64,000 nt of DNA, taken from positions 11,376-75,375 of the forward strand of contig NZ_AXWO01000021.1 in the NCBI RefSeq assembly GCF_000482705.1. Reading direction: 5' to 3'. This DNA comes from Glycomyces arizonensis DSM 44726 (GTDB lineage Bacteria; Actinomycetota; Actinomycetes; Mycobacteriales; Micromonosporaceae). The number at the start of each line of letters is the position of its first letter. The stretch's first letter is position 1. Below the pieces are notes generated by a model that was not told the DNA's origin, did not search any database, and saw only the letters and a list, made by a program, of their open reading frames with translations. The translations under genes and the position numbers were made by a program. This document shows, one piece after another, positions 25,745-44,688 of this stretch.

Positions 25745-25840
25745 TGCCGCGGCCGCCGGATGTCACGGGTTCGGGGGCGGTGAGCAGTCGGACGCCGAGT
25801 CGCCGCTGGTGGTGTCAGGTTTGCGAGCGGTCCTAGCGTC

Positions 25841-25860
25841 AGTGGTATGTAATATGTTAC
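25841..25860 (+). promoter_or_regulatory. Operator motif copy A upstream of the peptide ABC operon
   Basis: AGTGGTATGTAATATGTTAC matches the motif AGTGRTATRTMAYATRT also found at 26000 and, on the other strand, before the hydroxyproline operon at 37795-37813. It contains TAATAT, a possible -10. Likely target of the GntR protein encoded at 37074. Confidence 0.6.
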
Positions 25861-25999
25861 TGTCGCCAGGCGGCGCGAGCGCCGAGGGTGTTCTCACCGA
25901 TACCCCTCGGTCTTCATGCCGGAGGTCCGAATTCTCGGACTTCCGCGCAGACGCGGCGCGCGCAGTGGCGGCACGGATTCGGCGATCCGTGCGCGCCGC

Positions 26000-26019
26000 A
26001 GTGATATATCACATGTCAC
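26000..26019 (+). promoter_or_regulatory. Operator motif copy B upstream of the peptide ABC operon
   Basis: AGTGATATATCACATGTCAC; its GTGATATATCAC core is a perfect 12-bp palindrome (26001-26012). Same motif as copies at 25841 and 37795. It lies 155 bp before the binding-protein start. Confidence 0.6.
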
Positions 26020-26174
26020 ACAGAAGGGCGGTGCGAGCGCGGATGGACCTGAACGGTCCGCCGCGAGGGCATCGCGGCACGGAGGTTCGCCGAACCCCCT
26101 GATCCGGCAACTCCGGCGTCCCGCTCGGACTCACGACGCGGCCGACCGGCGGAAGAACCGATAGGAAGTCCCTC

Positions 26175-27863
26175 ATGAACAAGAGATCGACCCGCGCCCC
26201 GGCGGCCATCATGGCCGCGGCGCTGCTGCTCACCGGCTGTTCCGGCGGAGGAGCGGACGACTCCGGCGGTGGCGGCGGGGGCGACCCCGTCGAAGGCGGA
26301 ACCGTCCACATGCTCCAGAACGCCGACTTCTCCTACCTCGACCCCGCGCGCGGCTTCGACGGCGGCGTGAACGCGTTCTACCGGCTGATCTACCGCGGCC
26401 TCACCACGCAGGCCGCCGGCGACGCCGAGGACCCGAACGCCATCGTCCCCGACCTGGCCGAAAGCCTCGGAACGGCCTCAGAAGACGGTCTCACCTGGAC
26501 CTACACCCTCAAGGACGGCCTGAAGTTCGACAACGGCGACCCCATCACCTCCGCCGAGGTCGAGTTCGGCATCTCCCGCGCGTGGGACCCCGAGATCGGC
26601 ATCGGCTCGCCGTGGCTGAAGAAGACCATCGCCGCCCCCGAGGACTACCTCGGCCCCTACCGCTCGGGCGACCACCCCGGCATCGACGCCCCCGACGAGC
26701 ACACCATCGTCTTCCACCTCATCGAGCCCTTCCCGGAGTTCGACAACGTCCTCGCCCAGCCGAACGCGGTGCCCTTCCCCGTGGGCTCGGGCGCCGGTGA
26801 CGAGTTCATCAACGACATCATCGCCTCCGGCCCCTACACGCTCGAGAGCTACACCCCCGGCAGCCTGATCGAGCTCGTCCGCAACGAGCACTGGGACCCC
26901 GAGACCGACGACGTCCGCAGGGCCTACCCCGACGCCTGGGAGTTCGAGATCGGCCTCGAAGGGGCCACGATCGACGAACGACTCATGGCCGGGCAGGGCT
27001 CCGACGTCAACGCCATCTCCGGCGTCATCCAGGCGGCCACGCTGGCGCGCGTGCAGACCCCCGAGCTGCAGGAGCGGCTGAAGACCTCGCCCGCCTACTG
27101 CACCACCTACATGTCGATGAACATGACCAAGGCGCCGTTCGACCAGCTCGAGGTGCGTCAGGCGATCAACTGGGCGATCGACCGGAAGTCCGTGCAGACC
27201 GCCTCGGGCGGCACCCAGCTCGCCGACCCCGCCACCACGATCATCCCCGAGGCGGTGACCGGCCACCAGGACTTCGACCTGTACCCGAGCGAGGACTACG
27301 GCGGCGACACCGACAAGGCGCTGGAGCTCCTCGCCCAGGTCGGCCTCGAAGACGGCTTCTCGTTCGTCCTCGACATCCGCTCGCAGCCCAAGATGCAGGC
27401 GCAGGCCGAGGCCATCCAGCAGGCGCTCAAGGAGATCAACGTCGAAGTCGAGCTGAACGTCATCGACACCTCGACGTACTACGAGACGATCGGCACGCCC
27501 TCGCAGCAGCACGACGCCGCCATCACCGGCTGGTGCCCCGACTGGGCCTCCAGCGCGAGCACGATGGTCCCGCCGCTGGTCGACGGGCGCAACATCACCG
27601 ACAAGGGCAACACCAACCTCGCGCAGATCGACGATGAGACGATCAACGCCCGCATCGACGAGATCAGCGCCATGACCGACCTCGAAGCGGCGAATGCCGA
27701 ATGGGGCGAGCTCGACGAGGAGGTCATGGCCCTCGCGCCGATCGCCCCCCTCGTCTGGGAGAAGGGCATCTTCCTCCCCGGTGAGAACATCGCCGGCTAC
27801 CACCCCAGCACCAGCATGACCGACCTGACGATCATCGGGCTGGAAGACCCGTCGCTGGGCTGA
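26175..27863 (+). CDS. Peptide ABC transporter substrate-binding lipoprotein (family 5, DppA/OppA-like)
   Basis: 562 aa with lipobox LLLTGC (Cys about residue 20) and a Gly/Asp linker. Family 5 signatures: GGTVHMLQNADFSYLDPARGF, PDLAESLGTASEDGLTWTYTLKDGLKFDNGDPITSAEV and the late RQAINWAIDRKSV. It binds extracellular peptides or glycopeptides. First gene of an operon whose downstream genes are prolyl peptidases and a beta-L-arabinofuranosidase, so proline/hydroxyproline-rich arabinosylated peptides are the predicted ligands (inference). Confidence 0.93.
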   Translation: MNKRSTRAPAAIMAAALLLTGCSGGGADDSGGGGGGDPVEGGTVHMLQNADFSYLDPARGFDGGVNAFYRLIYRGLTTQAAGDAEDPNAIVPDLAESLGTASEDGLTWTYTLKDGLKFDNGDPITSAEVEFGISRAWDPEIGIGSPWLKKTIAAPEDYLGPYRSGDHPGIDAPDEHTIVFHLIEPFPEFDNVLAQPNAVPFPVGSGAGDEFINDIIASGPYTLESYTPGSLIELVRNEHWDPETDDVRRAYPDAWEFEIGLEGATIDERLMAGQGSDVNAISGVIQAATLARVQTPELQERLKTSPAYCTTYMSMNMTKAPFDQLEVRQAINWAIDRKSVQTASGGTQLADPATTIIPEAVTGHQDFDLYPSEDYGGDTDKALELLAQVGLEDGFSFVLDIRSQPKMQAQAEAIQQALKEINVEVELNVIDTSTYYETIGTPSQQHDAAITGWCPDWASSASTMVPPLVDGRNITDKGNTNLAQIDDETINARIDEISAMTDLEAANAEWGELDEEVMALAPIAPLVWEKGIFLPGENIAGYHPSTSMTDLTIIGLEDPSLG

Positions 27864-27868
27864 AACCG

Positions 27869-28843
27869 ATGACCTTCACCTCGACAGACCTCGAAGTCGA
27901 AGGCGCGGCGGGCGGCGAGACGGTCGGTGAACCCGCACCGGCCTCGCCGCCCGCACAAGGGCGACACCTCGTCCACGCCTTCCTCCGCGACCGCGTGGCC
28001 GTCGCCTGCGGCGTCTACATCCTGCTCGTCGTCCTCATGGCCCTCGCCGCGCCGCTGCTGGTCAAGATCAGCGGCTACGGGCCCCTGGAGTTCGACCAGA
28101 GCGCCGTCGACCCGAACCTCGGCGGGCTCCCGATCGGCTGGGGCGGCGGCATGGGCGCCGAGCACTGGTTCGGCGTCGAGCCCGGCAACGGGCGCGACAT
28201 CTTCGCCCGCATCGTCTACGGCGCGCGGGTGTCGATGACGATCGCCCTCGCCGCGACCGTGCTCACGAGCGTCCTCGGCGTCGTCTTCGGGCTCATCGCC
28301 GGCTACTTCGGCGGCCGCGTCGACATGGTGGTCTCCCGCGTCATGGAGTTCCTCATGGCGTTCCCGGCGCTCATCTTCATGATCGCCGTCCTCTCCGCGC
28401 TGCCGGCCGACAACCGCCAGTTCCTGCTCGTCGTCGTGATCTCGTTCTTCGGATGGCCGTACCTGGCCCGCATCGTCCGCGGCCAGACCATGTCGCTCAA
28501 GGAACGGGAGTTCGTCGAGTCGGCACGGGCGTCGGGGGCCTCCAGCCTCCAGATCATCTTCAAGGAGATCCTCCCGAACCTCGCCTCCACCATCATCGTG
28601 ATGACCACGCTCGCGGTGCCCGGCTACGTCGGCACCGAGGCGGGGCTGTCGTTCCTCGGCGTCGGCGTCGTCCCGCCGACGCCGTCGTGGGGGCAGATGA
28701 TCGCCAGCTCGGTGCCCTGGTACGCCGTCGATCCCGCCTACTTCCTCATCCCGGGGGCCTTCCTGTTCATGCTCGTGCTGTCGTTCACCGTGCTCGGCGA
28801 CCGCGTCAAGAAGATCGCCGAATCCGGGGAGGGCAGGGCATGA
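27869..28843 (+). CDS. Peptide ABC transporter permease, DppC-like
   Basis: 324 aa. An N-terminal cytoplasmic tail with one membrane segment precedes the core domain (five further segments); EAA loop VESARASGASSLQIIFKEILPNL and the DppC motif GTEAGLSFLGVGVVPPTPSWGQMI. Its stop overlaps the next start (ATGA), so the two permeases are coupled. Gene order C-then-B is the reverse of the textbook dpp order but is common in actinomycetes. Confidence 0.93.
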   Translation: MTFTSTDLEVEGAAGGETVGEPAPASPPAQGRHLVHAFLRDRVAVACGVYILLVVLMALAAPLLVKISGYGPLEFDQSAVDPNLGGLPIGWGGGMGAEHWFGVEPGNGRDIFARIVYGARVSMTIALAATVLTSVLGVVFGLIAGYFGGRVDMVVSRVMEFLMAFPALIFMIAVLSALPADNRQFLLVVVISFFGWPYLARIVRGQTMSLKEREFVESARASGASSLQIIFKEILPNLASTIIVMTTLAVPGYVGTEAGLSFLGVGVVPPTPSWGQMIASSVPWYAVDPAYFLIPGAFLFMLVLSFTVLGDRVKKIAESGEGRA

Positions 28844-29838
28844 GCCGCTTCCTCCTCAACCGGCTGCTCGGCATGGTCGTCGTGCTGTTCGGCGTGTGCC
28901 TGTTCACCTTCGTCATCTTCTTCGTCCTCTCGCCCGATCCGGCGGTGCAGATATGCGGGAAGAACTGCACGCCGGAGGCGATCGACCAGATCCGGGAGAA
29001 CCTCGGCCTCGACCAGCCGTTCTGGACCCAGTTCTGGACGTTCATCAGCGGGCTCTTCGTCGGGCGCACCTACGGCACCGGCCCCAACGCCATCGATTGC
29101 GCGGCGCCGTGCCTCGGCTACTCGTTCCAGACGAGCCAGCCGGTCACCGACATGATCATGCAGCGCCTGCCGGTCTCGGCGACCATCGCGATCGGCGCCG
29201 CCCTGCTCTGGCTGCTCTCGGGCGTCGCCGGGGGGCTCATCAGCGCCGTGCGCGAGGGCAGGTTCGCCGACCGCTTCATCGCGGGGCTCACCCTCACCGG
29301 CATGTCCATCCCCAACTACGTGCTGGCGCTCTCGCTCCAGTTCGTGCTCGTGGTCACGCTCGGCTGGCTGCCCTTCCCGCAGGCGGTGTCGTTCGGGAAC
29401 GACCCGCTCCAGTGGTTCCTCAACTTCCTGATGCCCTGGATCGTGCTCGCCATCGGAGCCGCGGCCGTCTACACCAGACTCACCCGGGCGAACGTCATCG
29501 AATCGCTCCAGGAGAACTACGTCCGCACCGCGCGGGCGAAGGGCCTCAGCCCCGGCCTGGTCTGGCGGCGGCACGCGCTGCGACCGGCGCTGACGCCGAT
29601 CGTCACGATCTTCGGCATGGACTTCGCCAACCTGCTCGGCGGCGCCCTCATCACCGAGACCGTCTTCGGGCTCAACGGCGTCGGCAAGCTCGCCGCCGAC
29701 TCGATCACGAAGAACGACCAGCCGGTCATCATGGCCGTCACGCTGCTCGCGGCCTTCCTGGTCGTCGTCGGCGCCATGGTCGTCGACCTGCTGTACACCG
29801 CCATCGACCCGCGCGTGCGAGTGGGGAGCGCCAAATGA
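28840..29838 (+). CDS. Peptide ABC transporter permease, DppB-like
   Basis: 332 aa from the ATG overlapping the upstream stop. Starts with the DppB-type segment FLLNRLLGMVVVLFGVCLFTFVIFF and has a periplasmic loop with two Cys pairs (ICGKNC and CAAPC), often seen in actinomycete homologues. EAA loop YVRTARAKGLSPGLVWRRHALRPA, then IGALITETVFGLNGVGKL-type ending. Stop overlaps the next gene by ATGA. Confidence 0.93.
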   Translation: MSRFLLNRLLGMVVVLFGVCLFTFVIFFVLSPDPAVQICGKNCTPEAIDQIRENLGLDQPFWTQFWTFISGLFVGRTYGTGPNAIDCAAPCLGYSFQTSQPVTDMIMQRLPVSATIAIGAALLWLLSGVAGGLISAVREGRFADRFIAGLTLTGMSIPNYVLALSLQFVLVVTLGWLPFPQAVSFGNDPLQWFLNFLMPWIVLAIGAAAVYTRLTRANVIESLQENYVRTARAKGLSPGLVWRRHALRPALTPIVTIFGMDFANLLGGALITETVFGLNGVGKLAADSITKNDQPVIMAVTLLAAFLVVVGAMVVDLLYTAIDPRVRVGSAK

Positions 29839-30698
29839 GCACCGCAACGGACACCGCCGCGCCACTGCTCCGCGTCCGCGGCCTCACGGTCGGCTTCCCG
29901 ACCGCGGCCGGAACCACCGACGTCGTCAAGTCCCTCGACTTCGACCTGGAGCGCGGCGGCGCGCTCGGGATCGTCGGCGAGTCGGGCTCGGGCAAGTCGA
30001 TGACCAGCCTCGCCATCATGGGGCTCCTGCCGAAGGGCGCCACGCGCTCCGGTTCCATCGAGTTCGACGGCACCGAGCTGACGACCCTGCGCGAGCGCGC
30101 GATGCGGGCCGTCCGCGGTGACCGCATCGCGATGATCTTCCAGGACCCGCTGTCCTCGCTCAACCCCTACTACACGGTGGGGACGCAGATCGCCGAGGCG
30201 TACCGCTCGCACCGCAAGGGCGTGACCAGGCGGCAGGCGCGAACCGTGGCGATCGAGGCGATGGAGCGCGTGCACATCCACGACGCCGCCCGCCGGGTCC
30301 ACCACTACCCGCACCAGTTCTCCGGCGGGATGCGGCAGCGCGTGATGATCGCGATGATGCTCAGCATGGAGCCCGAGCTCATCATCGCGGACGAGCCGAC
30401 GACCGCGCTCGACGTCACGGTCCAGGCGCAGATCCTCGACCTGCTGGCCGAGATCCGGGCCGACACCGGCGCCGGACTCATCCTCATCACCCACGACCTC
30501 GCCGTCGTCAGCGAGGTGACCGACCACATCGTCGTCATGCGCGAGGGCGACCTCGTCGAACAGGGCTCGGCGGAGCGGATCTTCACCGATCCTCAGGAGG
30601 AGTACACGCGCATGCTCCTCGACGCCGTGCCGCGCATCGACGACGAGATCGGCCTGCTGCGCACCACGGCCGCACCGAGCGCGGAGGAGGACCGATGA
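29835..30698 (+). CDS. Peptide ABC transporter ATPase, DppD-like
   Basis: 287 aa. Walker A GESGSGKS, Q-loop MIFQDPLSSLNP, signature FSGGMRQRVMIAM, Walker B LIIADEPTTALD and H-loop ITHDLA are intact. It is somewhat shorter than typical DppD because the C-terminal oligopeptide-transporter extension is abbreviated (YTRMLLDAVPRID). Start ATG overlaps the DppB stop. Confidence 0.93.
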   Translation: MSTATDTAAPLLRVRGLTVGFPTAAGTTDVVKSLDFDLERGGALGIVGESGSGKSMTSLAIMGLLPKGATRSGSIEFDGTELTTLRERAMRAVRGDRIAMIFQDPLSSLNPYYTVGTQIAEAYRSHRKGVTRRQARTVAIEAMERVHIHDAARRVHHYPHQFSGGMRQRVMIAMMLSMEPELIIADEPTTALDVTVQAQILDLLAEIRADTGAGLILITHDLAVVSEVTDHIVVMREGDLVEQGSAERIFTDPQEEYTRMLLDAVPRIDDEIGLLRTTAAPSAEEDR

Positions 30699-31564
30699 GC
30701 GACGGAAGCGAAGCCCTGCTGCGGGTGCGGAACCTGGTCAAGGACTTCACCTCGCCCGGCGGCGTCTTCGGCCGCACCAGGCGGTTCCGCGCGGTCGACG
30801 ACGTCTCGCTCGACGTGGCGACCGGCGAGACGCTCGCGCTCGTCGGCGAGTCGGGCTCGGGCAAGTCGACCACGGCGCGCATGATCGCCCGGCTCATCGA
30901 CCCCACCGGCGGCACGATCGAGTTCGCCGGCCGCGAGGTCCACGAGCTCACCGGGAAGGCGCTGCACGCCTTCCGCGGCGAGGTGCAGGTCGTCTTCCAG
31001 GACCCCTACTCCTCGCTGAACCCCAAGCACACCGTCGAGCGGATCGTCACCGCGCCGCTGGTCTACCAGAAGCGGAAGGTCCCCGGCGGCGCGCGCGCCT
31101 TCACCGGGGCGCTCATGGAGCGCGTCGGGCTCAACCCCGACCACTCGGCCCGCTTCCCCGCCCAGTTCTCCGGCGGGCAGGCGCAGCGCATCGGCATCGC
31201 CCGCGCGCTCGCCGTCGCCCCGAAGATGATCATCGCCGACGAGGCCGTGTCCGCATTGGACGTGTCGGTGCAGGCGCAGGTCATCAACCTGCTCCGGCGG
31301 CTCCAAGAGGAGGAGGGCTTCAGCTGCCTCTTCATCGCGCACGACCTGGCGGTGGTGCGGCAGATCGCGACGCGCGTGGCGGTCATGAACGGCGGGCGCA
31401 TCGTCGAGACCGGCGAGCGCGACCAGGTCTTCGACTCCCCCCGCGACGACTACACCAGGAAGCTCCTCGCCGCCGTCCCTAGGATCAGACCCGAATGGGA
31501 CGCCGAACGGCGCCGGAACGAGCAGGCCCGCAAGGACCGCGAACGGAAGGAGGCCGGACGATGA
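30695..31564 (+). CDS. Peptide ABC transporter ATPase, DppF-like
   Basis: 289 aa. Walker A GESGSGKS, VVFQDPYSSLNP Q-loop, signature FSGGQAQRIGIARAL, Walker B MIIADEAVSALD and H-loop IAHDLA. It completes the importer: one binding protein, two permeases and two ATPases all in the operon, unlike the sugar importers here, which lack ATPases. ATGA overlaps join it to genes on both sides. Confidence 0.93.
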   Translation: MSDGSEALLRVRNLVKDFTSPGGVFGRTRRFRAVDDVSLDVATGETLALVGESGSGKSTTARMIARLIDPTGGTIEFAGREVHELTGKALHAFRGEVQVVFQDPYSSLNPKHTVERIVTAPLVYQKRKVPGGARAFTGALMERVGLNPDHSARFPAQFSGGQAQRIGIARALAVAPKMIIADEAVSALDVSVQAQVINLLRRLQEEEGFSCLFIAHDLAVVRQIATRVAVMNGGRIVETGERDQVFDSPRDDYTRKLLAAVPRIRPEWDAERRRNEQARKDRERKEAGR

Positions 31565-32841
31565 TCGAGTACTCGATGCCCGGCATGTGGGTGCGCGAGC
31601 ACCAGGTCCGTGTCCCGCTGGACTGGTGGAACCCCGGCGGCGAGATCGAGGTCTTCGTCCGCGAGATCGTCGACCCCGACAAGCGCGGCGGCGACCTGCC
31701 GCTCCTCACCTACCTCCAGGGCGGCCCCGGCGGGTCGAACCCGCGCCCGACCGAGGCCTCCGGCTGGCTGGCCGAGGCCCTCAAGGACTACCGCGTCGTG
31801 TTCGTCGACCAGCGCGGCACCGGCCGCAGCACCCCGATCGACGCCCGGATCGTCGCCGAACTCGGCGACGCCCAGGCCGGAGCGGGCTACCTCGCGCACT
31901 TCCGCGCCGACTCGATCGTGCGCGACCTCGAACACGTGCGCGCCACGCTCTACGAAGGACGGAAGTGGGCCACGCTCGCGCAGAGCTACGGCGGGTGGCT
32001 CACCCTCGCCTACCTCTCGCACGCGCCCGAGGCCCTGGCCGCCTGCTACGTGTGCGGCGGCATCCCCGGCAACCCCATGAGCGCCGAGGAGGTCTACCGG
32101 CGCACCTTCGACCGCGTCGCGGCCAAGACCGCCGAGTTCTACCGGCGCTACCCGCAGGACGTCGAGCTCGTCGCGCGGATCGCCGACCGGCTCGCCGCCG
32201 AACCCGTGCACCTGAGCGACGGCGACACGCTCACCGTGCGCCGCTTCCAGTCGCTCGGCATCGACCTCGGCATGAAGCCGGGCATCGAGCGCATGCACTG
32301 GCTCGTCGAGGACGCGTTCATCACCGGCGATCGCCTCTCCGAAGGCTTTCTCGCCGCCGTCCTCGCCCGCACCTCCTCGGCCGCCAACCCGCTCTTCTGG
32401 ACCCTCCAGGAGTCGATCTACGGCGACGGCGCGAACGGGCCGACCGCCTGGGCCGCGCAGCGCGAACGCGACCGCCGCCCCGAGTTCGCCGAAGGCGTCC
32501 GCCCGCTCCCGTTCACCGGCGAGATGGCCTTCCCGTGGATGTTCGACGAGGTCAGGCTGCTGCGCGGCTTCGCTCCCGCCGTCCACGCCCTCGCCGAGCG
32601 CCGCGAGTGGAGCCCGGTCTTCGACTCCGGCCGCCTCGCGGCGAACGAGGTCCCGATCGCGGCGGCGGTCTACTTCGAGGACATGTTCGTCGACTCGGGA
32701 CTCCAACTGGACACCCTGCGGGGCCTCGGCAACGCCCAGGCGTGGGTGACGAACGAGTTCGAGCACGACGGGATCGCGTCGGGACGGGTGCTCACCCGCC
32801 TGCGCGAGATGGTCCGCGACCGAGGAGGAGAACGGCGATGA
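31561..32841 (+). CDS. Proline iminopeptidase-like alpha/beta hydrolase (S33)
   Basis: 426 aa from the ATG overlapping the DppF stop. S33 hallmarks: YLQGGPGGSNPRP (oxyanion HGGPG-type loop), VFVDQRGTGRS and nucleophile QSYGGW (S142); a large cap domain sits between about residues 180 and 330. The Asp/His partners are probably in YFEDMFVD and NEFEHDG. No signal peptide. Family members release N-terminal proline, and often hydroxyproline, from peptides in the cytoplasm, matching the downstream hydroxyproline pathway. Confidence 0.9.
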   Translation: MIEYSMPGMWVREHQVRVPLDWWNPGGEIEVFVREIVDPDKRGGDLPLLTYLQGGPGGSNPRPTEASGWLAEALKDYRVVFVDQRGTGRSTPIDARIVAELGDAQAGAGYLAHFRADSIVRDLEHVRATLYEGRKWATLAQSYGGWLTLAYLSHAPEALAACYVCGGIPGNPMSAEEVYRRTFDRVAAKTAEFYRRYPQDVELVARIADRLAAEPVHLSDGDTLTVRRFQSLGIDLGMKPGIERMHWLVEDAFITGDRLSEGFLAAVLARTSSAANPLFWTLQESIYGDGANGPTAWAAQRERDRRPEFAEGVRPLPFTGEMAFPWMFDEVRLLRGFAPAVHALAERREWSPVFDSGRLAANEVPIAAAVYFEDMFVDSGLQLDTLRGLGNAQAWVTNEFEHDGIASGRVLTRLREMVRDRGGERR

Positions 32842-36979: not shown

Positions 36980-37073
36980 GGGTCGCAATCGGAGGCGGAG
37001 CGGACCGCGCCGTGTACGCTGCGAGGCGACGGCGCCGGTCCGGTACGCGCGTTGTCGAAGGGAGAGCTGGGGA

Positions 37074-37754
37074 GTGACGTTGCCATCCATCCAACGACTG
37101 GAGCCGGGCGAGAGCCTGCGGGCGCGCGTGGAGCGGACGCTCTCGACCGCGATCATCTCGGGTGAGCTCGCGCCCGGGACGCTCCTGACCGTCCCGACGC
37201 TGGCCGAGCAGTTCGCGGTGTCGGCGACGCCCGTCCGCGAGGCGATGCTCGACCTCGAGAAGCGCGGCTTCGTCGAACCGGTGCGCAACAAGGGCTTCCG
37301 CGTGACGGCGGTGAGCGACGACCTGCTCCACGACATCGTCGAGATCCGGCTGCTGCTGGAGCCCCCCGCCATGGCGCGCCTCGCCGAGGCGTTCCCGGCC
37401 GACCGGCTGGAGGAGCTCCGCGCCCAGGCCGATGCGATCGTCACCGGCGCGCGCGCGGGCGATCTCGCCGCCTACCTGCTCGCGGACCGCCGCTTCCATC
37501 TGGAGCTGACCGCGCTGCTCGGCAACGACACGCTGGTCGAGACGATCGCCGAGCTGCGCGCGCGCACCCGCCTGGTCGGGCTCGTCTCGCTGCTGGAGAC
37601 GAGCATGCTCGACGTCTCGGCCGCGGAGCACCACCGGCTCCTCGACCACCTCGCCGCGGGCGACGCGGACGCGGCGGGTGAGCTCATGCGCCACCACATC
37701 CGCCACGCCGTCGGATGGTGGGCGGGCAAACCCGAGGCGGCCGAGGGCGAGTAG
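37074..37754 (+). CDS. GntR/FCD regulator, probable regulator of hydroxyproline and glycopeptide genes
   Basis: 226 aa from a GTG with a GGGAG-rich leader. Winged HTH (AIISGELAPGTLLTVPTLAEQFAVSATPVREAMLDLEKRGFVEPVRNKGFRV) and FCD domain (DRRFHLELTALLGN, AEHHRLLDHLAAGD). It stands between the peptide-uptake operon and the hydroxyproline operon, and the same palindromic motif (TATGTCACATA-like) precedes both, so it is the natural candidate regulator. A hydroxyproline-pathway intermediate would be the expected ligand (inference). Confidence 0.9.
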   Translation: MTLPSIQRLEPGESLRARVERTLSTAIISGELAPGTLLTVPTLAEQFAVSATPVREAMLDLEKRGFVEPVRNKGFRVTAVSDDLLHDIVEIRLLLEPPAMARLAEAFPADRLEELRAQADAIVTGARAGDLAAYLLADRRFHLELTALLGNDTLVETIAELRARTRLVGLVSLLETSMLDVSAAEHHRLLDHLAAGDADAAGELMRHHIRHAVGWWAGKPEAAEGE

Positions 37755-37794
37755 CCCTCGGAGGAAGAGAACTCCGACCCATTGCGACCCCGAT

Positions 37795-37813
37795 AAATAT
37801 GTGACATACCACT
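37795..37813 (-). promoter_or_regulatory. Operator motif copy C upstream of the hydroxyproline operon
   Basis: Read on the minus strand: AGTGGTATGTCACATATTT, containing the perfect palindrome TATGTCACATA (GT-N-AC core, as in FadR-type GntR sites). It ends 17 bp before the oxidoreductase start at 37831. Copies A and B lie before the peptide ABC operon at 25841 and 26000. Confidence 0.65.
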
Positions 37814-37830
37814 AATGAGGAGGTGAGACC

Positions 37831-39027
37831 ATGCAGGCGGATGTGGCGATCGTCGGCGCCGGCATCGTCGGCGCGGCGTGCGCGCGGGCCCTGGCGCGCG
37901 CCGGAATGAGCGTCGTCATCGTCGACCGCGGCGCCCCCGCCGCCGCGACGAGCGCGAGCGGCGAAGGCAACCTCCTGGTCTCCGACAAGGCGCCGGGGCC
38001 GGAGCTCGACCTCGCGCTCCTCGCCTCGGCGCACTGGCCCCGCCTCGCCGCCGAACTCGCCGACGAGCTCGGCGACTCGTTCCCCGCCGTCGAATACGAG
38101 CGGAAGGGCGGCGTCGTCGTCGCCACCACCGAGGCGGGGGCCGGGCCGCTGCGCGACTTCGCCCGCGGCCAGGCCGAAGTCGGCGTCGAGACCGAGGACC
38201 TCAGCGTCGCCGAGGCGCTCGAACTCGAACCACACCTCAACCCCGAGATCACCGCGGCCGTCCACTACCCGCAGGATGCGCAGGTCCAACCGGTCATCGC
38301 CGCCGAGGCCCTGCTCGCCTCGGCCAGGCGATCGGGCGCGCGGATCCTGCCGCACCGGGAGGTCGTCGGCGCACTGCGGGACGCCGCTGGGCGCATCACC
38401 GGCATCCGCACCGCCGCAGAGGAAATCCACGCCGGTGCCGTCGTCGTCGCGGCCGGGCCCTGGTCCGGTGCCGTCGCTGAATCTCTCGGCGCCGAGCTCC
38501 CCGTCCACCCCCGGCGCGGGATGGTCCTGGTGACCGCGCGCATGCACCAGAAGGTGTTCCACAAGGTCTACGACGGCGACTACTTCGGCGCGACCCAGTC
38601 CGCCGACGCCGCGCTCCAGACCTCCAGCGTCGTCGAGTCCACTCCCGGCGGCACCGTCCTCATCGGCTCCAGCCGCCAGCAGATCGGCTTCGACGACCGG
38701 CTGGACGTCGCGGTCCTCGCCGCGGTCGCGCGAAAGGCGCTGCGCCTCTTCCCCTTCCTGGAGACCACGCCGGTGATCCGCGCGTACGGCGGCTTCCGCC
38801 CCTACATACCCGACCACCTCCCGGTCATCGGCGAGGACCACCGGCACCCCGGGCTCTGGTACGCCACCGGGCACGAGGGCGCCGGGATCGGCCTGGCGGG
38901 GGTGACGGGCGAACTCATCGGCGCGCTCCTCACCGGCGCCGAACCGGCGATCGACCCCGGGCCGTTCAGCCCTTCGCGCCCGAGCCTCGCCGCCCACCTC
39001 ACCCCGACCCCGGAGGGAGCGGCATGA
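37831..39027 (+). CDS. FAD-dependent oxidoreductase, D-hydroxyproline dehydrogenase catalytic (beta) subunit-like
   Basis: 398 aa, DAO/glycine-oxidase-like fold. N-terminal FAD motif VAIVGAGIVGAACARALARAGMSV, and C-terminal PVIRAYGGFRPYIPDHLPVIGED...WYATGHEGAGIGLAG. With the next two genes (a small 2Fe-2S subunit and an NAD/FAD-type subunit with BFD-like cluster) it makes the heterotrimeric amine dehydrogenase typical of cis-4-hydroxy-D-proline oxidation to 1-pyrroline-4-hydroxy-2-carboxylate. RBS AGGAGG; overlaps the next gene by ATGA. Confidence 0.9.
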   Translation: MQADVAIVGAGIVGAACARALARAGMSVVIVDRGAPAAATSASGEGNLLVSDKAPGPELDLALLASAHWPRLAAELADELGDSFPAVEYERKGGVVVATTEAGAGPLRDFARGQAEVGVETEDLSVAEALELEPHLNPEITAAVHYPQDAQVQPVIAAEALLASARRSGARILPHREVVGALRDAAGRITGIRTAAEEIHAGAVVVAAGPWSGAVAESLGAELPVHPRRGMVLVTARMHQKVFHKVYDGDYFGATQSADAALQTSSVVESTPGGTVLIGSSRQQIGFDDRLDVAVLAAVARKALRLFPFLETTPVIRAYGGFRPYIPDHLPVIGEDHRHPGLWYATGHEGAGIGLAGVTGELIGALLTGAEPAIDPGPFSPSRPSLAAHLTPTPEGAA

Positions 39028-39338
39028 GCGCCATCGTCCCCTGGAGATCCGACCCCATCCGCCCCGCCGAGCCCCGGCCGCTGCGCATCAGCGTCGACGG
39101 CGTCCCCGTCGAAGGGCTGCACGGGCAGTCGATCGCGGGCGTCCTCCTCGCGCAAGGCGAGACCGCCTGGCGCACCACCGTCGCGGGCCGCGGACGCGGC
39201 GTCTTCTGCGGGATCGGCGTCTGCTTCGACTGCGTCGCCACCGTCAACGGCGAGAGCGACGTGCGCCTGTGCATGCGCCGCGCGCAGGACGGCGATGTCG
39301 TCGAGACGCAGAACGATGCGGGGGAGGAGCGGGTATGA
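39024..39338 (+). CDS. Small 2Fe-2S ferredoxin-like subunit of D-hydroxyproline dehydrogenase
   Basis: 104 aa. Plant-type 2Fe-2S cluster ligands in FCGIGVCFDCVATVNG and RLCMRRAQ (spacing C-x4-C-x2-C, then a distant C). Known heterotrimeric hydroxyproline, octopine and nopaline dehydrogenases carry such a small gamma subunit between alpha and beta. Overlaps both neighbours by ATGA, so the three subunits are made stoichiometrically. Confidence 0.9.
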   Translation: MSAIVPWRSDPIRPAEPRPLRISVDGVPVEGLHGQSIAGVLLAQGETAWRTTVAGRGRGVFCGIGVCFDCVATVNGESDVRLCMRRAQDGDVVETQNDAGEERV

Positions 39339-40741
39339 GCAGCGTTCTTGTCATCGGCGCCGGTCCCGCCGGACTCGCCGCCGCCGTGGCCGCGAGCGAC
39401 GCCGGAGCGCGCGTCACCCTCCTCGACTCCGGCGACGGCCTCGGCGGGCAGTATTGGCGACACCTGCCCGCCCAGCGCCCCAGCCGAAACGAGGCCCGGC
39501 TCCACCACGGGTGGGCAGCCTTCGAGCGGCTCCGAAGCCGCATCGGCGGCGACGACGCGATCGAGGTCGTCACCGAGGCCCAGGTCTGGGCCATCGAGAC
39601 CGCCGAATCCGTGACGGCCCAAGTCCTCGTCGGCCCCGCCGACGCCGCCGGACGCGAGGCGCGGGCCCTGACCGCCGACGCCATCGTGCTCGCCCCCGGC
39701 GCCCACGACCGCACGCTGCCGTTCCCCGGCTGGCACCTCCCGGGCGTCTTCTCCGCCGGGGCCGCCCAGGCCCTCGCGAAGGGCGAACGCATCGCCGTGG
39801 GCCGCCGCGCCGTCGTCGCCGGGGCCGGACCGTTCCTGCTGCCGGTCGCCCAGTCGCTCACCGCCGCCGGTGCGACCGTCCTCGGCGTGTTCGAGGCGGC
39901 CCGCCCGCCCGCCCTCGCCAAAGGCTGGCTCTCGAAGCCCTGGAAGCTCTTCGGCACGGCCCACAAGGGCCGCGAGCTCGCCGGATACCTGGCCCATCAC
40001 CTCGTCCACCGGGTGCCCTACCGGCTCGGCCGCGCCGTGGTCGAGGCCCGCGGCGACGGCCGCGTCGAGGAAGTGGTCATCGCGCGCGTCGACGCGGAGT
40101 GGGCCCCGGTGCCCGGCACCGAGCGGACCCTCGCCGCCGACGCGGTCTGCGTCAGCCACGGCTTCACCCCGCGCCTCGAACTGCCGATCGCCGCCGGGTG
40201 CGCGATCGGCCCGGACCGCTTCGTCCGCGTCGACCCAGATCAACGCACGAGCGTCGACGGCGTGTACGCGGCCGGTGAGATCACCGGCATCGGCGGGGTC
40301 GACGCGGCACTCGTCGAGGGCCGCATCGCGGGCCACCGCGCCGCCGGAGGCGCGAAATCCGCAATGGACTCCGCCCGGCGCCGCCGCGCGGCCACTACCG
40401 ACCTCGCCCGGCGCATCGAGGCCGCCCACGGCATCCGCCCCGGCTGGACCTCCTGGCTGCGCGACGACACCGTCGTCTGCCGCTGCGAGGAGGTCCCCTA
40501 CGCCAGGCTCCGCAGTGTGGCAGAGGCGACCGAGCAGCACGCCATGCGCTCGGTGAAGCTCACGACCCGAGCGGGCCTCGGCATCTGCCAGGCGCGCATG
40601 TGCGGCCGCACGGTGGAGGCCCTCATCGGGGCGGACACCTCGCGCGGCGCCGACACCTCCGACCGGCGGCCCCTGGCCGCGCCCATTCGGCTCGGCGACC
40701 TCGCCGAGCTCCCCACCACGCCCAAGCGCGGCAGTGCCTAG
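39335..40741 (+). CDS. NAD/FAD-dependent oxidoreductase with C-terminal BFD-like 2Fe-2S motif, D-hydroxyproline dehydrogenase alpha subunit-like
   Basis: 468 aa from the ATG overlapping the upstream stop. Rossmann motif VLVIGAGPAGLAAAVAASDAG, second nucleotide-binding stretch AVVAGAGPFLLPVAQSL, and a C-terminal Cys-rich domain VVCRCEEVPYARL...TTRAGLGICQARMCG that binds a 2Fe-2S cluster. This is the electron-transferring alpha subunit of the heterotrimer. The next gene follows after 15 nt with its own RBS. Confidence 0.9.
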   Translation: MSSVLVIGAGPAGLAAAVAASDAGARVTLLDSGDGLGGQYWRHLPAQRPSRNEARLHHGWAAFERLRSRIGGDDAIEVVTEAQVWAIETAESVTAQVLVGPADAAGREARALTADAIVLAPGAHDRTLPFPGWHLPGVFSAGAAQALAKGERIAVGRRAVVAGAGPFLLPVAQSLTAAGATVLGVFEAARPPALAKGWLSKPWKLFGTAHKGRELAGYLAHHLVHRVPYRLGRAVVEARGDGRVEEVVIARVDAEWAPVPGTERTLAADAVCVSHGFTPRLELPIAAGCAIGPDRFVRVDPDQRTSVDGVYAAGEITGIGGVDAALVEGRIAGHRAAGGAKSAMDSARRRRAATTDLARRIEAAHGIRPGWTSWLRDDTVVCRCEEVPYARLRSVAEATEQHAMRSVKLTTRAGLGICQARMCGRTVEALIGADTSRGADTSDRRPLAAPIRLGDLAELPTTPKRGSA

Positions 40742-40756
40742 AAAGGGAAGACACCC

Positions 40757-41689
40757 ATGACTGACAAGAAGTTCGACCTCGGCGGCGTCGTCGTCGCGAC
40801 GACGCTGGCGTTCAAGGAGGACCCGAAGGCGCCCGCCGGGCTCGCGGTCGACTACGACAAGTTCGCCGAGCACTGCGACTTCCTCATCCGCAACGGCTGC
40901 CGCGGCGTCGGCCCCAACGGCTCGCTCGGCGAGTACTCCTCCCTCACCGACTCCGAGCGCCGCAAGGTCGTGCAGGTCGCCGTCGAAACGGTCGGCGACC
41001 GCGGGCTCGTCGTCGCCGGTGTGCACGGCGTCGGCTGGCACCAAGCGGTCCAGTGGGCCGAGCACGCCCAGGAGGACGGCGCCGACGGCGTCCTGCTGCT
41101 CCCGCCGACGATCTACCGCGCCAACCGCGGCGAGGTCGTCGAGCACTACACCAAGGTCAACGAGGTCGGCCTGCCGATCATGATGTACAACAACCCGTTC
41201 GACACGAAGGTCGACATCGGGCCCGACCTCATCGCCGAGCTGTACGAGCTCGAGAACGTCGTGGCCGTCAAGGAGTTCTCCACCGACGTCCGCCGCGTCC
41301 TGGAGATCCGGGAGCGGTGCGACATCGACGTCATCGCCGGCGCCGACGACCTCCTCTTCGAGTCGCTCGTCGTCGGCGCGAAGGGCTGGTTCGCCGGATA
41401 CCCGAACGCCTTCCCGCGCGAGGCCGTCGCGATCTACGATCTCGTCACGGCCGGGGAGATCGAGCGGGCCCGCGAGCTGTACACCGGCCTGGTGCCGGTG
41501 TTCCGCTGGGACACGAAGACGGAGTTCGTCCAGGCGATCAAGCTGTCGATGGACGTCGCGGGCAACAGCTACGGCGGGCCGACCCGCCCGCCGCGCGGGC
41601 CGCTCTCGGCAGCCCAGCGCGAGCAGGTCGTCCGCGACACCCGCCGCGCCCTGGACCACGCCGAACGATTCCACGGTTCCGCTTCCTAG
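40757..41689 (+). CDS. 1-pyrroline-4-hydroxy-2-carboxylate deaminase (DapA family)
   Basis: 310 aa, class I aldolase barrel of the dihydrodipicolinate-synthase family. Schiff-base Lys K172 (VVAVKEFSTD), catalytic Tyr Y144 (IMMYNNPFD) and the substrate loop GVGPNGSLGEYSSLTD are present. In the bacterial hydroxyproline route this family converts 1-pyrroline-4-hydroxy-2-carboxylate to 2-oxoglutarate semialdehyde plus ammonia; the flanking dehydrogenase, epimerase and semialdehyde dehydrogenase genes make that assignment strong. RBS GAAAGGGAAG. Confidence 0.9.
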   Translation: MTDKKFDLGGVVVATTLAFKEDPKAPAGLAVDYDKFAEHCDFLIRNGCRGVGPNGSLGEYSSLTDSERRKVVQVAVETVGDRGLVVAGVHGVGWHQAVQWAEHAQEDGADGVLLLPPTIYRANRGEVVEHYTKVNEVGLPIMMYNNPFDTKVDIGPDLIAELYELENVVAVKEFSTDVRRVLEIRERCDIDVIAGADDLLFESLVVGAKGWFAGYPNAFPREAVAIYDLVTAGEIERARELYTGLVPVFRWDTKTEFVQAIKLSMDVAGNSYGGPTRPPRGPLSAAQREQVVRDTRRALDHAERFHGSAS

Positions 41690-41731
41690 AGGTACCGTGC
41701 CCGCACGGGGACCGCTCGCGATTGGAGGAGC

Positions 41732-42733
41732 ATGAGAACGACACGGCTGATCAGCGCCGTCGACTCGCACACGGAGGGCATGCCGACCCGGGTGGTCACC
41801 GGCGGGGTCGGGACCATCCCGGGCGCGACGATGAACGACAAGCGCCTCCACTTCATCGAGCACATGGACGATCTGCGGCGCTTTTTGATGGACGAGCCGC
41901 GCGGCCACGCCGCGATGAGCGGCGCGATCCTCCAGCAGCCGACCCGCCCCGACTGCGACTGGGGCGTGATCTACATCGAGGTGTCCGGCTGCCTGCCGAT
42001 GTGCGGGCACGGCACGATCGGGGTCGCGACCGTGCTCGTCGAGACCGGGATGGTCCCTGTCGTCGAGCCGGTCACCGAGATCCGGCTCGACACGCCCGCC
42101 GGGCCGGTCACCGCGCGCGTCGCGGTCTCGGGCGGTCACGCCGACGCGGTCACCATCGAGAACGTGCCGAGCTACGCCGACGCGCTCGACACGAGCGTGG
42201 AGGTGCCCGGCCTGGGCACCGTCCCGTACTCGATGGCCTTCGGCGGCAACTTCTACGCGATGGTGGACCTCGACGACGTCGGCCTGCCGTTCGACCGCTC
42301 GCGCGGGCAGGAGATCCTGGCCGCCGGACTGGCGATCATGGACGCGATCAACGAGACCGCTCCGCCGCGGCACCCCGAGATCGCCGGGCTCGACCACTGC
42401 CACCACGTCGAGTTCATCGCGCCGGGATCGACCGCGGCGCGCTCGCGGCACGCGATGGCGATCCACCCCGGCTGGTTCGACCGCTCGCCGTGCGGCACCG
42501 GCACGTCCGCCCGGATGGCCGAGCTGTGGGCGCGCGGCGAGCTCGATCTCGAGACCGACTTCGTCAACGAGTCGTTCATCGGCACCCGTTTCATCGGGCG
42601 GCTCACCGGCGAGACCACCGTCGGCGGCCGTCCGGCGGTGGTCCCCACGATCACCGGCCGCGCCTGGGTGACCGGCACGGCGCAGTACATGCTCGACCCC
42701 GCCGACCCGTTCCCTTCGGGATTCCAGTTCTAG
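41732..42733 (+). CDS. 4-hydroxyproline 2-epimerase (proline racemase family)
   Basis: 333 aa. Both catalytic cysteines are present: C91 in MCGHGTIG and C254 in DRSPCGTGTSA. Two Cys indicate an epimerase or racemase; dehydratases of this family replace one with Ser or Thr. It would convert trans-4-hydroxy-L-proline to cis-4-hydroxy-D-proline, the substrate of the dehydrogenase encoded upstream. RBS GGAGGAG 2 nt before the ATG region. Separated from the deaminase gene by 42 nt. Confidence 0.92.
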   Translation: MRTTRLISAVDSHTEGMPTRVVTGGVGTIPGATMNDKRLHFIEHMDDLRRFLMDEPRGHAAMSGAILQQPTRPDCDWGVIYIEVSGCLPMCGHGTIGVATVLVETGMVPVVEPVTEIRLDTPAGPVTARVAVSGGHADAVTIENVPSYADALDTSVEVPGLGTVPYSMAFGGNFYAMVDLDDVGLPFDRSRGQEILAAGLAIMDAINETAPPRHPEIAGLDHCHHVEFIAPGSTAARSRHAMAIHPGWFDRSPCGTGTSARMAELWARGELDLETDFVNESFIGTRFIGRLTGETTVGGRPAVVPTITGRAWVTGTAQYMLDPADPFPSGFQF

Positions 42734-42741
42734 GAGTGCTC

Positions 42742-44232
42742 ATGACGAACCAGACGCCACTCGACAGCCTCGACGCGATCGCGCGGACCGCCGACGAGGC
42801 GGCCCGCGCGCTCGTGCGGATCGCCCCGGCGACCCGCGCCGCCGCCCTCGTCGCCGCCGCGGACGCGATCACCGCGGAAGCCGACGACCTGGTGGCGCTC
42901 GCGATGAGCGAGACCGGCCTGGCCGAGGTCCGACTGCGCGGCGAGCTGAAGCGGACCGCAGTCCAGCTGCGGCTCTTCGCCGACACGGTCGTCGACGGCG
43001 CCTATCTCGACGCCCGGATCGACCGCGCCGACCCCGACTTCGCGCTCGGGCCCCGGCCGGACGTGCGCAGCGTCAACGAGCCGATCGGGCCCGTGCTGAA
43101 CTTCGCCGCGAGCAACTTCCCGTTCGCGTTCTCCGTCGCCGGCGGGGACACCGCGGCCGCGCTCGCCGCGGGCAACCCGGTCATCGTCAAGGCCCACCCG
43201 GGCCACCCGCTCCTGTCCGAGCGCACCGCCGAGGTCGCCGCCGCCGCGCTCGAAGGCGCCGGGCTCCCTTCGGGCACACTGCAACTCATCGCCGGGCAGG
43301 AGGCGGGAGTCGCGATGCTGCGGCACCCGCTCGTCAAGGCCGCGTCGTTCACCGGATCGGTCGGGGCCGGGCGGGTCCTCGCCGACATCGCCGCCGCGCG
43401 GGTCGACCCGATCCCGTTCTACGGTGAGCTCGGCAGCGTCAACCCCGTCTTCGTCACCCCCGGCGCCCTCGCCGAACGCGCGGGCGAGATCGCCGCCGGG
43501 CTCGTGGCGAGCGTCGGCGGCTCCGCCGGGCAGCTGTGCACGAAGCCCGGATTCGTCTTCCTGCCCGCGGGCCACGGCCTCGACGACGCGATCGCCGAGG
43601 CTTCGGCCAAGGTCGAGGAGCACCGGATGCTGGGCCCGCGCATCGCCGAGGGCTATGCGCGGCGGCGCGACGCGATCCTCGAAACGGCGGGCGTCCGCGT
43701 CATCGCCGCCGGGTCGCTGCGGACCGACGACGGCGGCCAGGGCTGGGTGACGCCCACGATGGCCGCCGTCGGCGTCGAGGACCTCCGCGCCGGTCTCGGC
43801 ACGCTCCTCGACGAGTGCTTCGGCCCGCTCACGATCCTCGTCGAGGCACCGGCCGACGCCGATTACGCGGATCTGCTCGAGGAGTTCTTCGAAGGGAACC
43901 TCACCGTCACCGTGCACCGGGCCGACGGCGACGACGTCGCGCGCCTGGTGCGCGCGGCATCGCGCCGGGCCGGGCGCGTCCTGTTCGACGGCTGGCCCAC
44001 GGGGGTCGCGGTGACCCCCGCGATGCAGCACGGCGGGCCGTGGCCCGCCACGACCTCGGGCGGCACGAGCGTCGGCACGGCGGCCATCGCGCGGTTCGTG
44101 CGGGCGGTCGCCTACCAGAACGCTCCGGCGGCGATCCTGCCGCCGCCGCTGCGCGACGACAACCCGTGGGACGTGCCGCAGCGGATCGCCCCGGCGGGGG
44201 AGTCCGCCGCGTGGGGAGGCCGCGCGGCGTAG
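42742..44232 (+). CDS. 2-oxoglutarate semialdehyde dehydrogenase (NADP+/NAD+ aldehyde dehydrogenase)
   Basis: 496 aa from the ATG at 42742, 8 nt after the epimerase stop. Aldehyde dehydrogenase fold with nucleophile C266 (GQLCTKPGF), general base E229 (FYGELGSVNPVF) and NAD(P)-binding segments GPVLNFAASNFPFAFSVAGGDTAAALAAGNPVIVKAHPGHP and FTGSVGAGR. This sequence type matches 2-oxoglutarate semialdehyde dehydrogenases of hydroxyproline and sugar-acid pathways. It completes the route to 2-oxoglutarate. Confidence 0.91.
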   Translation: MTNQTPLDSLDAIARTADEAARALVRIAPATRAAALVAAADAITAEADDLVALAMSETGLAEVRLRGELKRTAVQLRLFADTVVDGAYLDARIDRADPDFALGPRPDVRSVNEPIGPVLNFAASNFPFAFSVAGGDTAAALAAGNPVIVKAHPGHPLLSERTAEVAAAALEGAGLPSGTLQLIAGQEAGVAMLRHPLVKAASFTGSVGAGRVLADIAAARVDPIPFYGELGSVNPVFVTPGALAERAGEIAAGLVASVGGSAGQLCTKPGFVFLPAGHGLDDAIAEASAKVEEHRMLGPRIAEGYARRRDAILETAGVRVIAAGSLRTDDGGQGWVTPTMAAVGVEDLRAGLGTLLDECFGPLTILVEAPADADYADLLEEFFEGNLTVTVHRADGDDVARLVRAASRRAGRVLFDGWPTGVAVTPAMQHGGPWPATTSGGTSVGTAAIARFVRAVAYQNAPAAILPPPLRDDNPWDVPQRIAPAGESAAWGGRAA

Positions 44233-44235
44233 TCG

Positions 44236-44688
44236 CTAACGCTCGTCGACGACCCGGCCGTACTCGTCGGCGAACTCGTGCAGCAGCGCGATGAGCCGTT
44301 CGGACTTCTCGGGTCCGAGCCTGTCGAGGGCGGACTGGTAGCCGCCGAGGACCACGTCCAGGTTCGCCTTGAGCGCCTCCGCGCCCGCCTCGGTGGGGGC
44401 GAATCGGTAGGCGGGGCTGCCCGGCTCGCGGGAGCGCTGGACCATGCCCTGGTGCAGCGCCGCGTTGACCTGGCGGTTGACGGTCGACTGCTCGAGCTTG
44501 AGCTGGTCGGCGATCTCGCGGAGCGTGCGCGGGCCGCTCTCGCTGAGGAGCCACAGCAGCCGCAGGTCGGCGGTGCCGATGGTGGCGCACTGGGTGATGA
44601 CGTGGCGCTGGCGCTCGAACCGCGTGATCGCGGCCGCGAACCGCCGCCCGGGGTCGCCGGGGGCGGTACCTGAACGCTGCTCGGCCAT
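44236..44688 (-). CDS. MarR-family transcriptional regulator
   Basis: 150 aa from the ATG at 44688 preceded by GGAGGCGAC; a longer form from 44718 is less likely. Winged HTH TADLRLLWLLSESGPRTLREIADQLKLEQSTVNRQVNAALHQGMVQR with the wing AYRFAPTEAG. It diverges from an MFS exporter gene across a short AT-rich region with an inverted repeat, the usual drug-efflux repressor layout. It is convergent with, and only 3 bp from, the end of the hydroxyproline operon and is probably unrelated to it. Confidence 0.92.
   Translation of the reverse strand: MAEQRSGTAPGDPGRRFAAAITRFERQRHVITQCATIGTADLRLLWLLSESGPRTLREIADQLKLEQSTVNRQVNAALHQGMVQRSREPGSPAYRFAPTEAGAEALKANLDVVLGGYQSALDRLGPEKSERLIALLHEFADEYGRVVDER

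Follow-up and report, generated by a model that had tools for sequence, protein, structure and literature searches.

A probable regulon for the use of arabinosylated, hydroxyproline-containing plant peptides in Glycomyces arizonensis

Why would a bacterium place a peptide importer, two peptidases and a glycosidase in front of an operon for hydroxyproline (Hyp) catabolism? This question is raised by positions 26175–44232 of a 64,000-nucleotide stretch of the Glycomyces arizonensis DSM 44726 genome (the window; contig C17 of the 5.05 Mb genome G000). According to the Pfam matches of the window's open reading frames, the region contains the genes sbpA-oppCBDF-S33-M24B-glycosidase (the block), then a GntR/FCD regulator gene and then the Hyp operon (Table 1). 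All genes named in the original prediction were found where it had placed them, and its chain of ATGA junctions from the second gene on was seen when the junctions were read directly: six 4-bp overlaps join the second to the eighth gene (oppC/oppB, oppB/oppD, oppD/oppF, oppF/S33, S33/M24B, M24B/GH; GH, glycoside hydrolase). The spacing between sbpA and oppC is 5 bp, and two more ATGA overlaps occur in the dehydrogenase genes of the Hyp operon (DAO/Fer2, Fer2/PyrR). We suggest that the region is likely to be one regulon for beta-L-arabinosylated, Hyp-containing plant peptides. The substrate had been called extensin-type; the arabinosylated Hyp-peptide is supported overall, whereas extensin is only one of several possible sources.

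The surroundings of the S33 gene in other genomes were compared. Eighty named loci were chosen by S33 alone, being the best 80 of 554 confirmed from at least 591 pattern matches. Within the fetched flanks a glycosidase gene of clan GH-P is present in 50 of them (22 GH146-like, 29 GH127, one with both), Hyp genes in 28, both in 23 and neither in 25. Hyp genes were counted where an epimerase of at least 50% or DAO plus Fer2 was found; hence five Nonomuraea loci with a DHDPS match only and the Celeribacter loci are uncounted. In Celeribacter (L193, L199) DAO, the epimerase (42%), the aldehyde dehydrogenase, SBP5/Opp and S33 lie in one run, with M24 next in L193, and no GH-P match was obtained. 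The glycosidase, either GH146-like or GH127, is found in 39 of the 41 loci with an ortholog of the importer versus 10 of the 39 loci without it. For importer and glycosidase the independent pairs on the S33 tree number about 6 to 0, with a median p of 0.03. The label sets of this test were made by hand and omit two GH127 matches, one to a second, outlying gene of L135 and one truncated by the edge of the locus in L177. L178 and L182 are the importer loci that lack a glycosidase; L182 ends about where GH127 would sit. Of the 22 importer loci in which the GH146-like gene is absent, 20 have a GH127 gene directly upstream of sbpA; such loci come from Kribbella, Nonomuraea, Sphaerisporangium, three Streptomyces, Isoptericola, Okibacterium, Humibacillus and Promicromonospora panici. 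Ten of these GH127 proteins were confirmed by Pfam, the one from L159 matches the PDB entries 4qjy (7e-112) and 3wkw (2e-91), and no signal peptide was evident by eye at the starts inspected. That two such families occupy one place is the strongest hint that the importer requires a beta-L-arabinofuranosidase activity.

These neighbourhoods also bear on a simpler explanation, namely that Hyp peptides derived from collagen or other proteins are the substrate and that the glycosidase is an incidental neighbour. Loci of the Micromonospora group would fit it, which combine S33, M24B and Hyp genes without an importer ortholog and in which no glycosidase was found (the GH127 model is negative in L187 and L194), and so would the Celeribacter locus L193 with its order DAO-Epim-Aldedh-SBP5-Opp-S33-M24 and no glycosidase. 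However, an incidental neighbour would hardly overlap M24B by ATGA, accompany the importer in 39 of 41 loci and be replaced, as a rule, by GH127 where it is missing. We regard this explanation as unlikely.

The S33 gene is in turn linked to the Hyp genes. In 300 genomes of the family we called S33 linked when it lies within 15 kb of the Hyp epimerase gene, counting S33 copies only where the genome has an epimerase match at E<=1e-110 (this leaves out G091, an S33 genome without such a match). Copies with at least 60% identity are linked in 25 of 32 cases, copies with at most 56% in 0 of 31 (Fisher p 2e-11, a value which ignores kinship and includes some S33 or epimerase matches on short contigs). 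Considering the pair tests, importer and glycosidase form one tight module and S33 and the Hyp genes another, and the window has both.

In addition, similar operator-like sites precede both operons, two upstream of sbpA and one upstream of the Hyp operon, and the regulator encoded between the operons is homologous to regulators beside stand-alone Hyp operons. The pattern ATGTNAYATRYYACTG, which was partly derived from the locus sites themselves, occurs with at most one mismatch at five places in the host genome, four of them in the locus, and its reversed control at none; the sole match outside the locus, with one mismatch, is at C27:12574-12589 (region L123). In 35 chosen genomes the exact sequence TGTNAYATRYYACTG occurs 78 times in 28 genomes and its reverse never, and 54 of the 78 sites lie within 10 kb of S33 or the epimerase. 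Among the 80 S33 loci it is found in 11 (six Glycomyces, Catenuloplanes, Kineosporia, Isoptericola, Okibacterium and one Streptomyces). When a matrix was trained with 16 sites from other genera, its six best window scores, 31.3 to 10.9 bits, all fell at the sbpA and DAO promoters; the next score in the window is 3.7 and the maximum of the reversed window 6.2. As the training sites were chosen by a pattern first seen in Glycomyces, this matrix is independent of the letters of the window but not wholly of the discovery. Several further pattern matches inside genes (e.g., inside an EF-G-like gene) or between convergent genes look accidental. The proposal of one control thus agrees with the sequences, and block and Hyp operon are probably co-regulated: the GntR/FCD protein may sense a Hyp-derived ligand and bind sites of the type CAGT-nn-TATGTnACATA-nn-ACTG before both operons. 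A second SBP5/Opp operon with an exact operator just upstream is present beside a stand-alone Hyp operon in L064 (G002 C12, 1021-6096), and G007 has a site that is spaced similarly to that of the L064 operon. Another GntR/FCD regulator is encoded at window positions 2701-3468, with 33% identity to the locus regulator, beside a SBP_bac_1-type importer gene.

The glycosidase had been proposed to be a GH127 enzyme. By sequence and predicted fold it is instead GH146-like, and the Glyco_hydro127C domain, present in 10 of 10 scanned GH127s of the alternative loci, is absent; the Pfam model GH127_cat matches GH146-like proteins too. Among solved structures the GH146 entries 5opj (1e-54), 8k7y (1e-43) and 8k7x (3e-43) are closest, followed by the best GH127 structure, 4qjy, with 4e-10 only, and the HypBA1 entries are not among the matches at E<=0.001. 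We also predicted the structure with AlphaFold2 (19 sequences, predicted local distance difference score, pLDDT, 79.6; predicted template modelling score 0.79). Its best fold matches are GH146 BT0349 (1e-32) and Bll3HypBA1 (6e-28), with BT_1003 (4e-22), GH127 4qjy (3e-21) and further GH127 enzymes down to about 1e-18 at lower rank. In Bll3HypBA1 the residues E723, C725, C804 and C805 form the zinc site and E578 is essential, according to the accessible part of the report (PMC10850190). The aligned window residues are E344, C346, C414 and C415, that is the Glu-Cys-Cys-Cys set with the cysteine nucleophile, and E230 aligns to E578 (counted by hand along the alignment). The zinc/cysteine residues and E230 are kept in all 22 alignment rows. 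In the predicted structure pLDDT is below 50 at 67-94, 336-343 and 405-414 among others, the last of which ends at a cysteine of the zinc site. Bll4HypBA1, a GH146 enzyme, cleaves Araf-beta1-Hyp (Araf, arabinofuranose; accessible part of PMC10850190), so a GH146-like ancestry is compatible with the proposed role without proving it. No signal peptide is apparent in the window protein or in the orthologs inspected (signal peptides, the lipobox and the metallopeptidase motif below were all assessed by eye), and the enzyme should therefore act after import, whereas two other PF07944 proteins of the host genome start with twin-arginine-like signals. In the cytoplasm this enzyme, with its GH146-like predicted fold and conserved catalytic residues, would strip beta-L-arabinofuranose, presumably from Hyp.

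One might also suppose that beta-L-Araf residues of arabinan, arabinogalactan or rhamnogalacturonan I (RG-I) are the target of the glycosidase and that the locus merely combines two catabolic themes. Its nearest solved relatives point in this direction, as BT0349 comes from an RG-I locus and Bll3HypBA1 is connected with arabinogalactan proteins and arabinan (PMC10850190, accessible part). Nevertheless, no signal peptide was seen, the block has no other arabinan enzyme and the operator-like sites are common with the Hyp genes, which makes this possibility very improbable.

What, then, would be imported? The closest solved relative of SbpA is the oligopeptide-binding protein 2wok (3e-89), and family and linkage suggest that the family 5 ATP-binding cassette (ABC) importer takes up the glycopeptides. 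Some family 5 binding proteins take non-peptide ligands and 6hlx AgaA is among the weaker SbpA matches. The importer might thus carry arabinose oligosaccharides or Hyp-arabinosides while the peptidases serve general peptide turnover. GH127 is also found near S33 (within about 5 kb) in seven alphaproteobacterial loci, six rhizobial and one of Martelella, and in the Rhizobium locus L176 it lies inside a MalK-type sugar importer operon beside S33, which would suit such a role. But since the best solved relative binds oligopeptides and the operon also contains two overlapping genes for proline-type peptidases, we consider a non-peptide substrate quite unlikely and prefer glycopeptides.

Inside the cell aminopeptidase P and the S33 hydrolase would trim the peptide and release Pro and presumably Hyp. 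The M24B protein has both the AMP_N and the Peptidase_M24 domain (PDB 5wze, 1e-48). The S33 protein is nearest to plant At3g61540 (8jgm/8jgn, 1e-99), with prolyl iminopeptidases at 2e-5 and weaker; a literature search for At3g61540 by name found nothing relevant. The accessible part of one report links S33 prolyl aminopeptidases to Hyp-rich peptides and cites work whose title speaks of high activity for acetylated hydroxyproline (PMC9147577). The gene set predicted for the trans-4-Hyp pathway is present together (racemase/epimerase, DAO-type dehydrogenase, DHDPS-type protein, aldehyde dehydrogenase) and is kept in relatives; from family and context the epimerase, the three-subunit dehydrogenase, the deaminase and the semialdehyde dehydrogenase would convert Hyp to 2-oxoglutarate. 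MCGHG and SPCGTG, which we take to be the cysteine motifs of the epimerase family, are both in the proposed window epimerase, and at E<=1e-40 the host genome shows a single epimerase match. The arabinose would enter the L-arabinose pathway of the genome, which encodes an L-arabinose isomerase match.

The locus is well conserved in the genus. Among 61 genomes (the own one, 21 congeners, 15 of the same family and 24 of the same order) an ortholog of the glycosidase (at least 75%) is found in 15 of 22 Glycomyces including the own one, plus Catenuloplanes at 55%. The block is syntenic in all 14 other Glycomyces regions fetched around this ortholog and in Catenuloplanes, while two other regions of the same round have a glycosidase of 42% without the block (G031) or were taken around a paralog (G006, where the Hyp operon has only S33 attached to it). 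The block recurs in Microbacterium, Promicromonospora, Kineosporia and a Streptomyces. In 10 of the 15 Glycomyces with the GH block, window included, the Hyp genes come after the GntR gene. They are upstream of the block in Catenuloplanes (g7) and in another genus group (g51), and in G249 only DHDPS is upstream, with the epimerase on another contig. Seven g4 genomes, two of them Micromonospora, have S33 and Hyp genes together without a GH146-like match, with M24B in six of the seven. Peptidase and Hyp genes are retained in some relatives in which no glycosidase was found, so that the Hyp-peptide part is the wider of the systems. The genes for gamma-glutamyltranspeptidase and a CHAT protein that lie upstream of S33 in one locus of the Micromonospora group were rejected as members. 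In total at least three gene orders occur among the relatives. Two deep groups (100*) are seen in the DHDPS tree, and both contain block-linked as well as stand-alone members; in these quick trees S33 of Microbacterium groups with Glycomyces and its DHDPS with Micromonospora and Nonomuraea. As two deep Hyp lineages are each joined to the block, the linkage was probably formed or re-formed more than once. In Microbacterium arabinogalactanolyticum (L132, 16277-19725) genes for LacI and an FGGY sugar kinase are found downstream of the GH block.

Several results weigh against the proposed regulon. That the two operons co-occur holds for this S33 clade (25 of 32 versus 0 of 31, and 23 of the 80 loci with both), but 27 of the 50 glycosidase-bearing loci have no Hyp genes in the fetched flank, and on the S33 tree a correlation of glycosidase and Hyp adjacency was not found, with about 2.9 to 0.8 pairs and a median p of 0.6. 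The Hyp genes are elsewhere in five of the 15 Glycomyces with the GH block (G002, G007, G010, G015, G016), with a related GntR near them in four, and distant relatives of the glycosidase (42-44%; G031, G076, G132) do not adjoin the block. Of the exact operator sites 24 of 78 are away from S33 and epimerase, 69 of the 80 S33 loci, including all nine Microbacterium block loci, have none, and among the 35 genomes the exact site is absent from G003, G018, G022, G033 and also from the Hyp-operon genome G040 and the Micromonospora G172 and G287. The S33 protein stays below the NCBIfam cut-off for prolyl aminopeptidase (32.4 versus 259.75 bits) and meets Abhydrolase_1; the gene was therefore filed as S33-like, so that of the proposed proline iminopeptidase the S33-type alpha/beta hydrolase stands and the equivalog assignment does not. 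Likewise, the epimerase reaches 337.2 bits against a cut-off of 376 for the NCBIfam Hyp epimerase, and 342.8 against 556 for proline racemase. Finally, besides the RG-I origin of BT0349, GH146 is polyspecific and Bll3HypBA1 is beta1,3-specific (accessible part of PMC10850190).

Table 1. Features of the Hyp-peptide locus (window positions)
Feature	Position	Strand	Basis or remark
Operator-like palindrome 1, upstream of sbpA, CAGTGGTATGTAATATGTTACTG	25840..25862	.	24.8 bits on both strands, other-genera matrix
Operator-like site 2, upstream of sbpA	25999..26021	.	31.3 bits, top score of the window
sbpA, family 5 solute-binding protein, lipobox-like LTGC by eye	26175..27863	+	Pfam SBP_bac_5 3e-75; best PDB match 2wok 3e-89
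OppC-type permease	27869..28843	+	Pfam BPD_transp_1, OppC_N
OppB-type permease	28840..29838	+	Pfam BPD_transp_1_N, BPD_transp_1
OppD-type ATPase	29835..30698	+	Pfam ABC_tran, oligo_HPY
OppF-type ATPase	30695..31564	+	Pfam ABC_tran, oligo_HPY
S33-type alpha/beta hydrolase, proposed Pro/Hyp aminopeptidase	31561..32841	+	Pfam Abhydrolase_1; PDB 8jgm/8jgn At3g61540 1e-99
M24B aminopeptidase P (Xaa-Pro, proposed Xaa-Hyp)	32838..34283	+	Pfam Peptidase_M24 and AMP_N; PDB aminopeptidase P 1e-48
Clan GH-P glycosidase, GH146-like, proposed beta-L-arabinofuranosidase, C-terminal OmpL47-type domain	34280..36979	+	899 aa
GntR/FCD regulator, between the two operons	37074..37754	+	Pfam GntR and FCD
Operator-like site, upstream of Hyp operon	37792..37814	.	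28.0 bits
Proposed D-hydroxyproline dehydrogenase, FAD subunit (DAO)	37831..39027	+	Pfam DAO 1e-67; role from context
Proposed D-hydroxyproline dehydrogenase, [2Fe-2S] subunit	39024..39338	+	Pfam Fer2_4; role from context
Proposed D-hydroxyproline dehydrogenase, Pyr_redox and BFD subunit	39335..40741	+	Pfam Pyr_redox_2, Fer2_BFD; role from context
DHDPS family, proposed 1-pyrroline-4-hydroxy-2-carboxylate deaminase	40757..41689	+	Pfam DHDPS 7e-50; role from context
Proline racemase superfamily, proposed 4-hydroxyproline 2-epimerase	41732..42733	+	Pfam Pro_racemase 7e-126
Aldehyde dehydrogenase, proposed 2-oxoglutarate semialdehyde dehydrogenase	42742..44232	+	Pfam Aldedh 2e-40; role from context

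An open reading frame at 34108-36930 was discarded as the glycosidase gene, being Arg-rich and in the wrong frame. Upstream of the block, at 16434-25677, LacI, GH36, GH38 and CBM2-GSDH genes are found, and extensin serines bear alpha-galactose. This cluster was rejected as a member of the unit: with GSDH as the one query from it, the gene was not seen beside sbpA in relatives, and the only matches were part-length ones of 44-51% past the GntR end in four genomes. Directly after the Hyp operon, at 44236-46263, there is a divergent MarR/MFS pair (EmrB-like, below the cut-off); Kineosporia (L137) has a similar pair after the glycosidase gene.

By following operator sites outside the loci we came upon a protein whose N-terminus is signal-like and which has a zinc-peptidase-like motif (HEFGHAV...DEYFA). 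Its gene is found at E<=1e-20 in six of the 300 family genomes, all Glycomyces (L205-L210), the host copy being L207 (G000 C13:95661-97457); those of G007, G011 and G012 were found via the operator pattern, the other three were not. The upstream site of G011, CAGTAATATGTTACATATTACTG, is palindromic except for the centre base, and the corresponding sites differ from it by two mismatches in G012, two in G009, three in the own genome and four in G013. In G007 none was found on scanning L210, and a tandem pair before the gene is seen in L119. Compared with all 23-mers of the window, the G011 palindrome has its three best matches (5, 7 and 7 mismatches) at the three window sites. The family assignment is weak: PF07737 matches below the cut-off in three of three scanned orthologs, the sole PDB profile match at E<=5 is a weak one to the Pro-Pro endopeptidase 6fpc (E 0.62), and the single sequence has no PDB match at E<=1. 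An OmpL47-type domain forms the C-terminal end in L206 and L207, as it does in the window glycosidase. We take this gene as a lead to a possible further regulon member; in the proposed scheme peptides would be released outside the cell, possibly partly by this protein. More speculatively, the regulon might work from outside to inside, a picture which we find rather unlikely: a secreted Hyp-Hyp (Pro-Pro-type) endopeptidase behind the same kind of palindromic operator would cut plant Hyp-rich glycoproteins, the importer would take up the arabinose-bearing peptides, and deglycosylation and Hyp oxidation would follow inside. If true, the importer could also deplete the rhizosphere of small plant signal peptides that carry arabinose (CLE-type).

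How does the locus compare with described systems? Bacterial trans-4-hydroxyproline operons comprise epimerase, D-Hyp dehydrogenase, deaminase and semialdehyde dehydrogenase, as is proposed for the Glycomyces locus. The accessible part of one paper describes no glycosidase or peptide-to-Hyp front end for them, and notes that in Bacilli trans-3-Hyp dehydratases have peptidase families and transporters nearby (PMC4113996). The HypBA1/HypBA2/HypAA system of Bifidobacterium longum joins, as is also proposed here, a clan GH-P beta-L-arabinofuranosidase and an ABC importer for plant Hyp-rich glycoproteins; there, however, the enzyme is extracellular, arabino-oligosaccharides are degraded and imported, and the accessible texts name no peptide importer or Hyp catabolism (PMC7263609, PMC6085000, PMC10850190). 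What sets the Glycomyces locus apart is that Hyp genes and genes for prolyl-type peptidases stand at one place with an importer of the peptide type and a glycosidase that appears to be cytoplasmic. In Xanthomonas euvesicatoria xehypBA1/BA2/AA include a GH146 beta-L-arabinofuranosidase for sugars of Hyp-rich glycoproteins (GH146 from PMC10850190), and next to xehypAA there is a gene for a putative prolyl oligopeptidase, this neighbouring gene being reported as a pseudogene; an importer and a Hyp operon are not described in the part accessible (PMC6085000). For Latescibacteria, GH127, peptidases and peptide transport were inferred to serve the degradation of Hyp-rich glycoprotein (extensin), as a genome inventory whose accessible text describes no single locus, regulon or Hyp catabolism (PMC4454575). 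The original prediction regarded the unit as apparently undescribed, and our literature search, covering titles and abstract openings with few subscription journals, found no description of the whole unit.

As sources of carbon and nitrogen, Hyp-rich glycoproteins and the peptides that plants secrete are hard to digest. The known bacterial routes, as far as the accessible sources describe them, cut the sugars at the cell surface. The locus appears to combine known kinds of enzymes in a new way and in an unusual order, importing first and deglycosylating inside. It predicts the import of O-glycopeptides with the sugar attached, and a combined peptide, sugar and amino acid pathway under one Hyp-responsive switch. 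It would also offer candidate enzymes that lend themselves to assay, the S33 hydrolase, the GH146-like glycosidase and possibly a Hyp-Hyp endopeptidase, and it suggests a route by which soil actinobacteria may influence arabinosylated plant signals.

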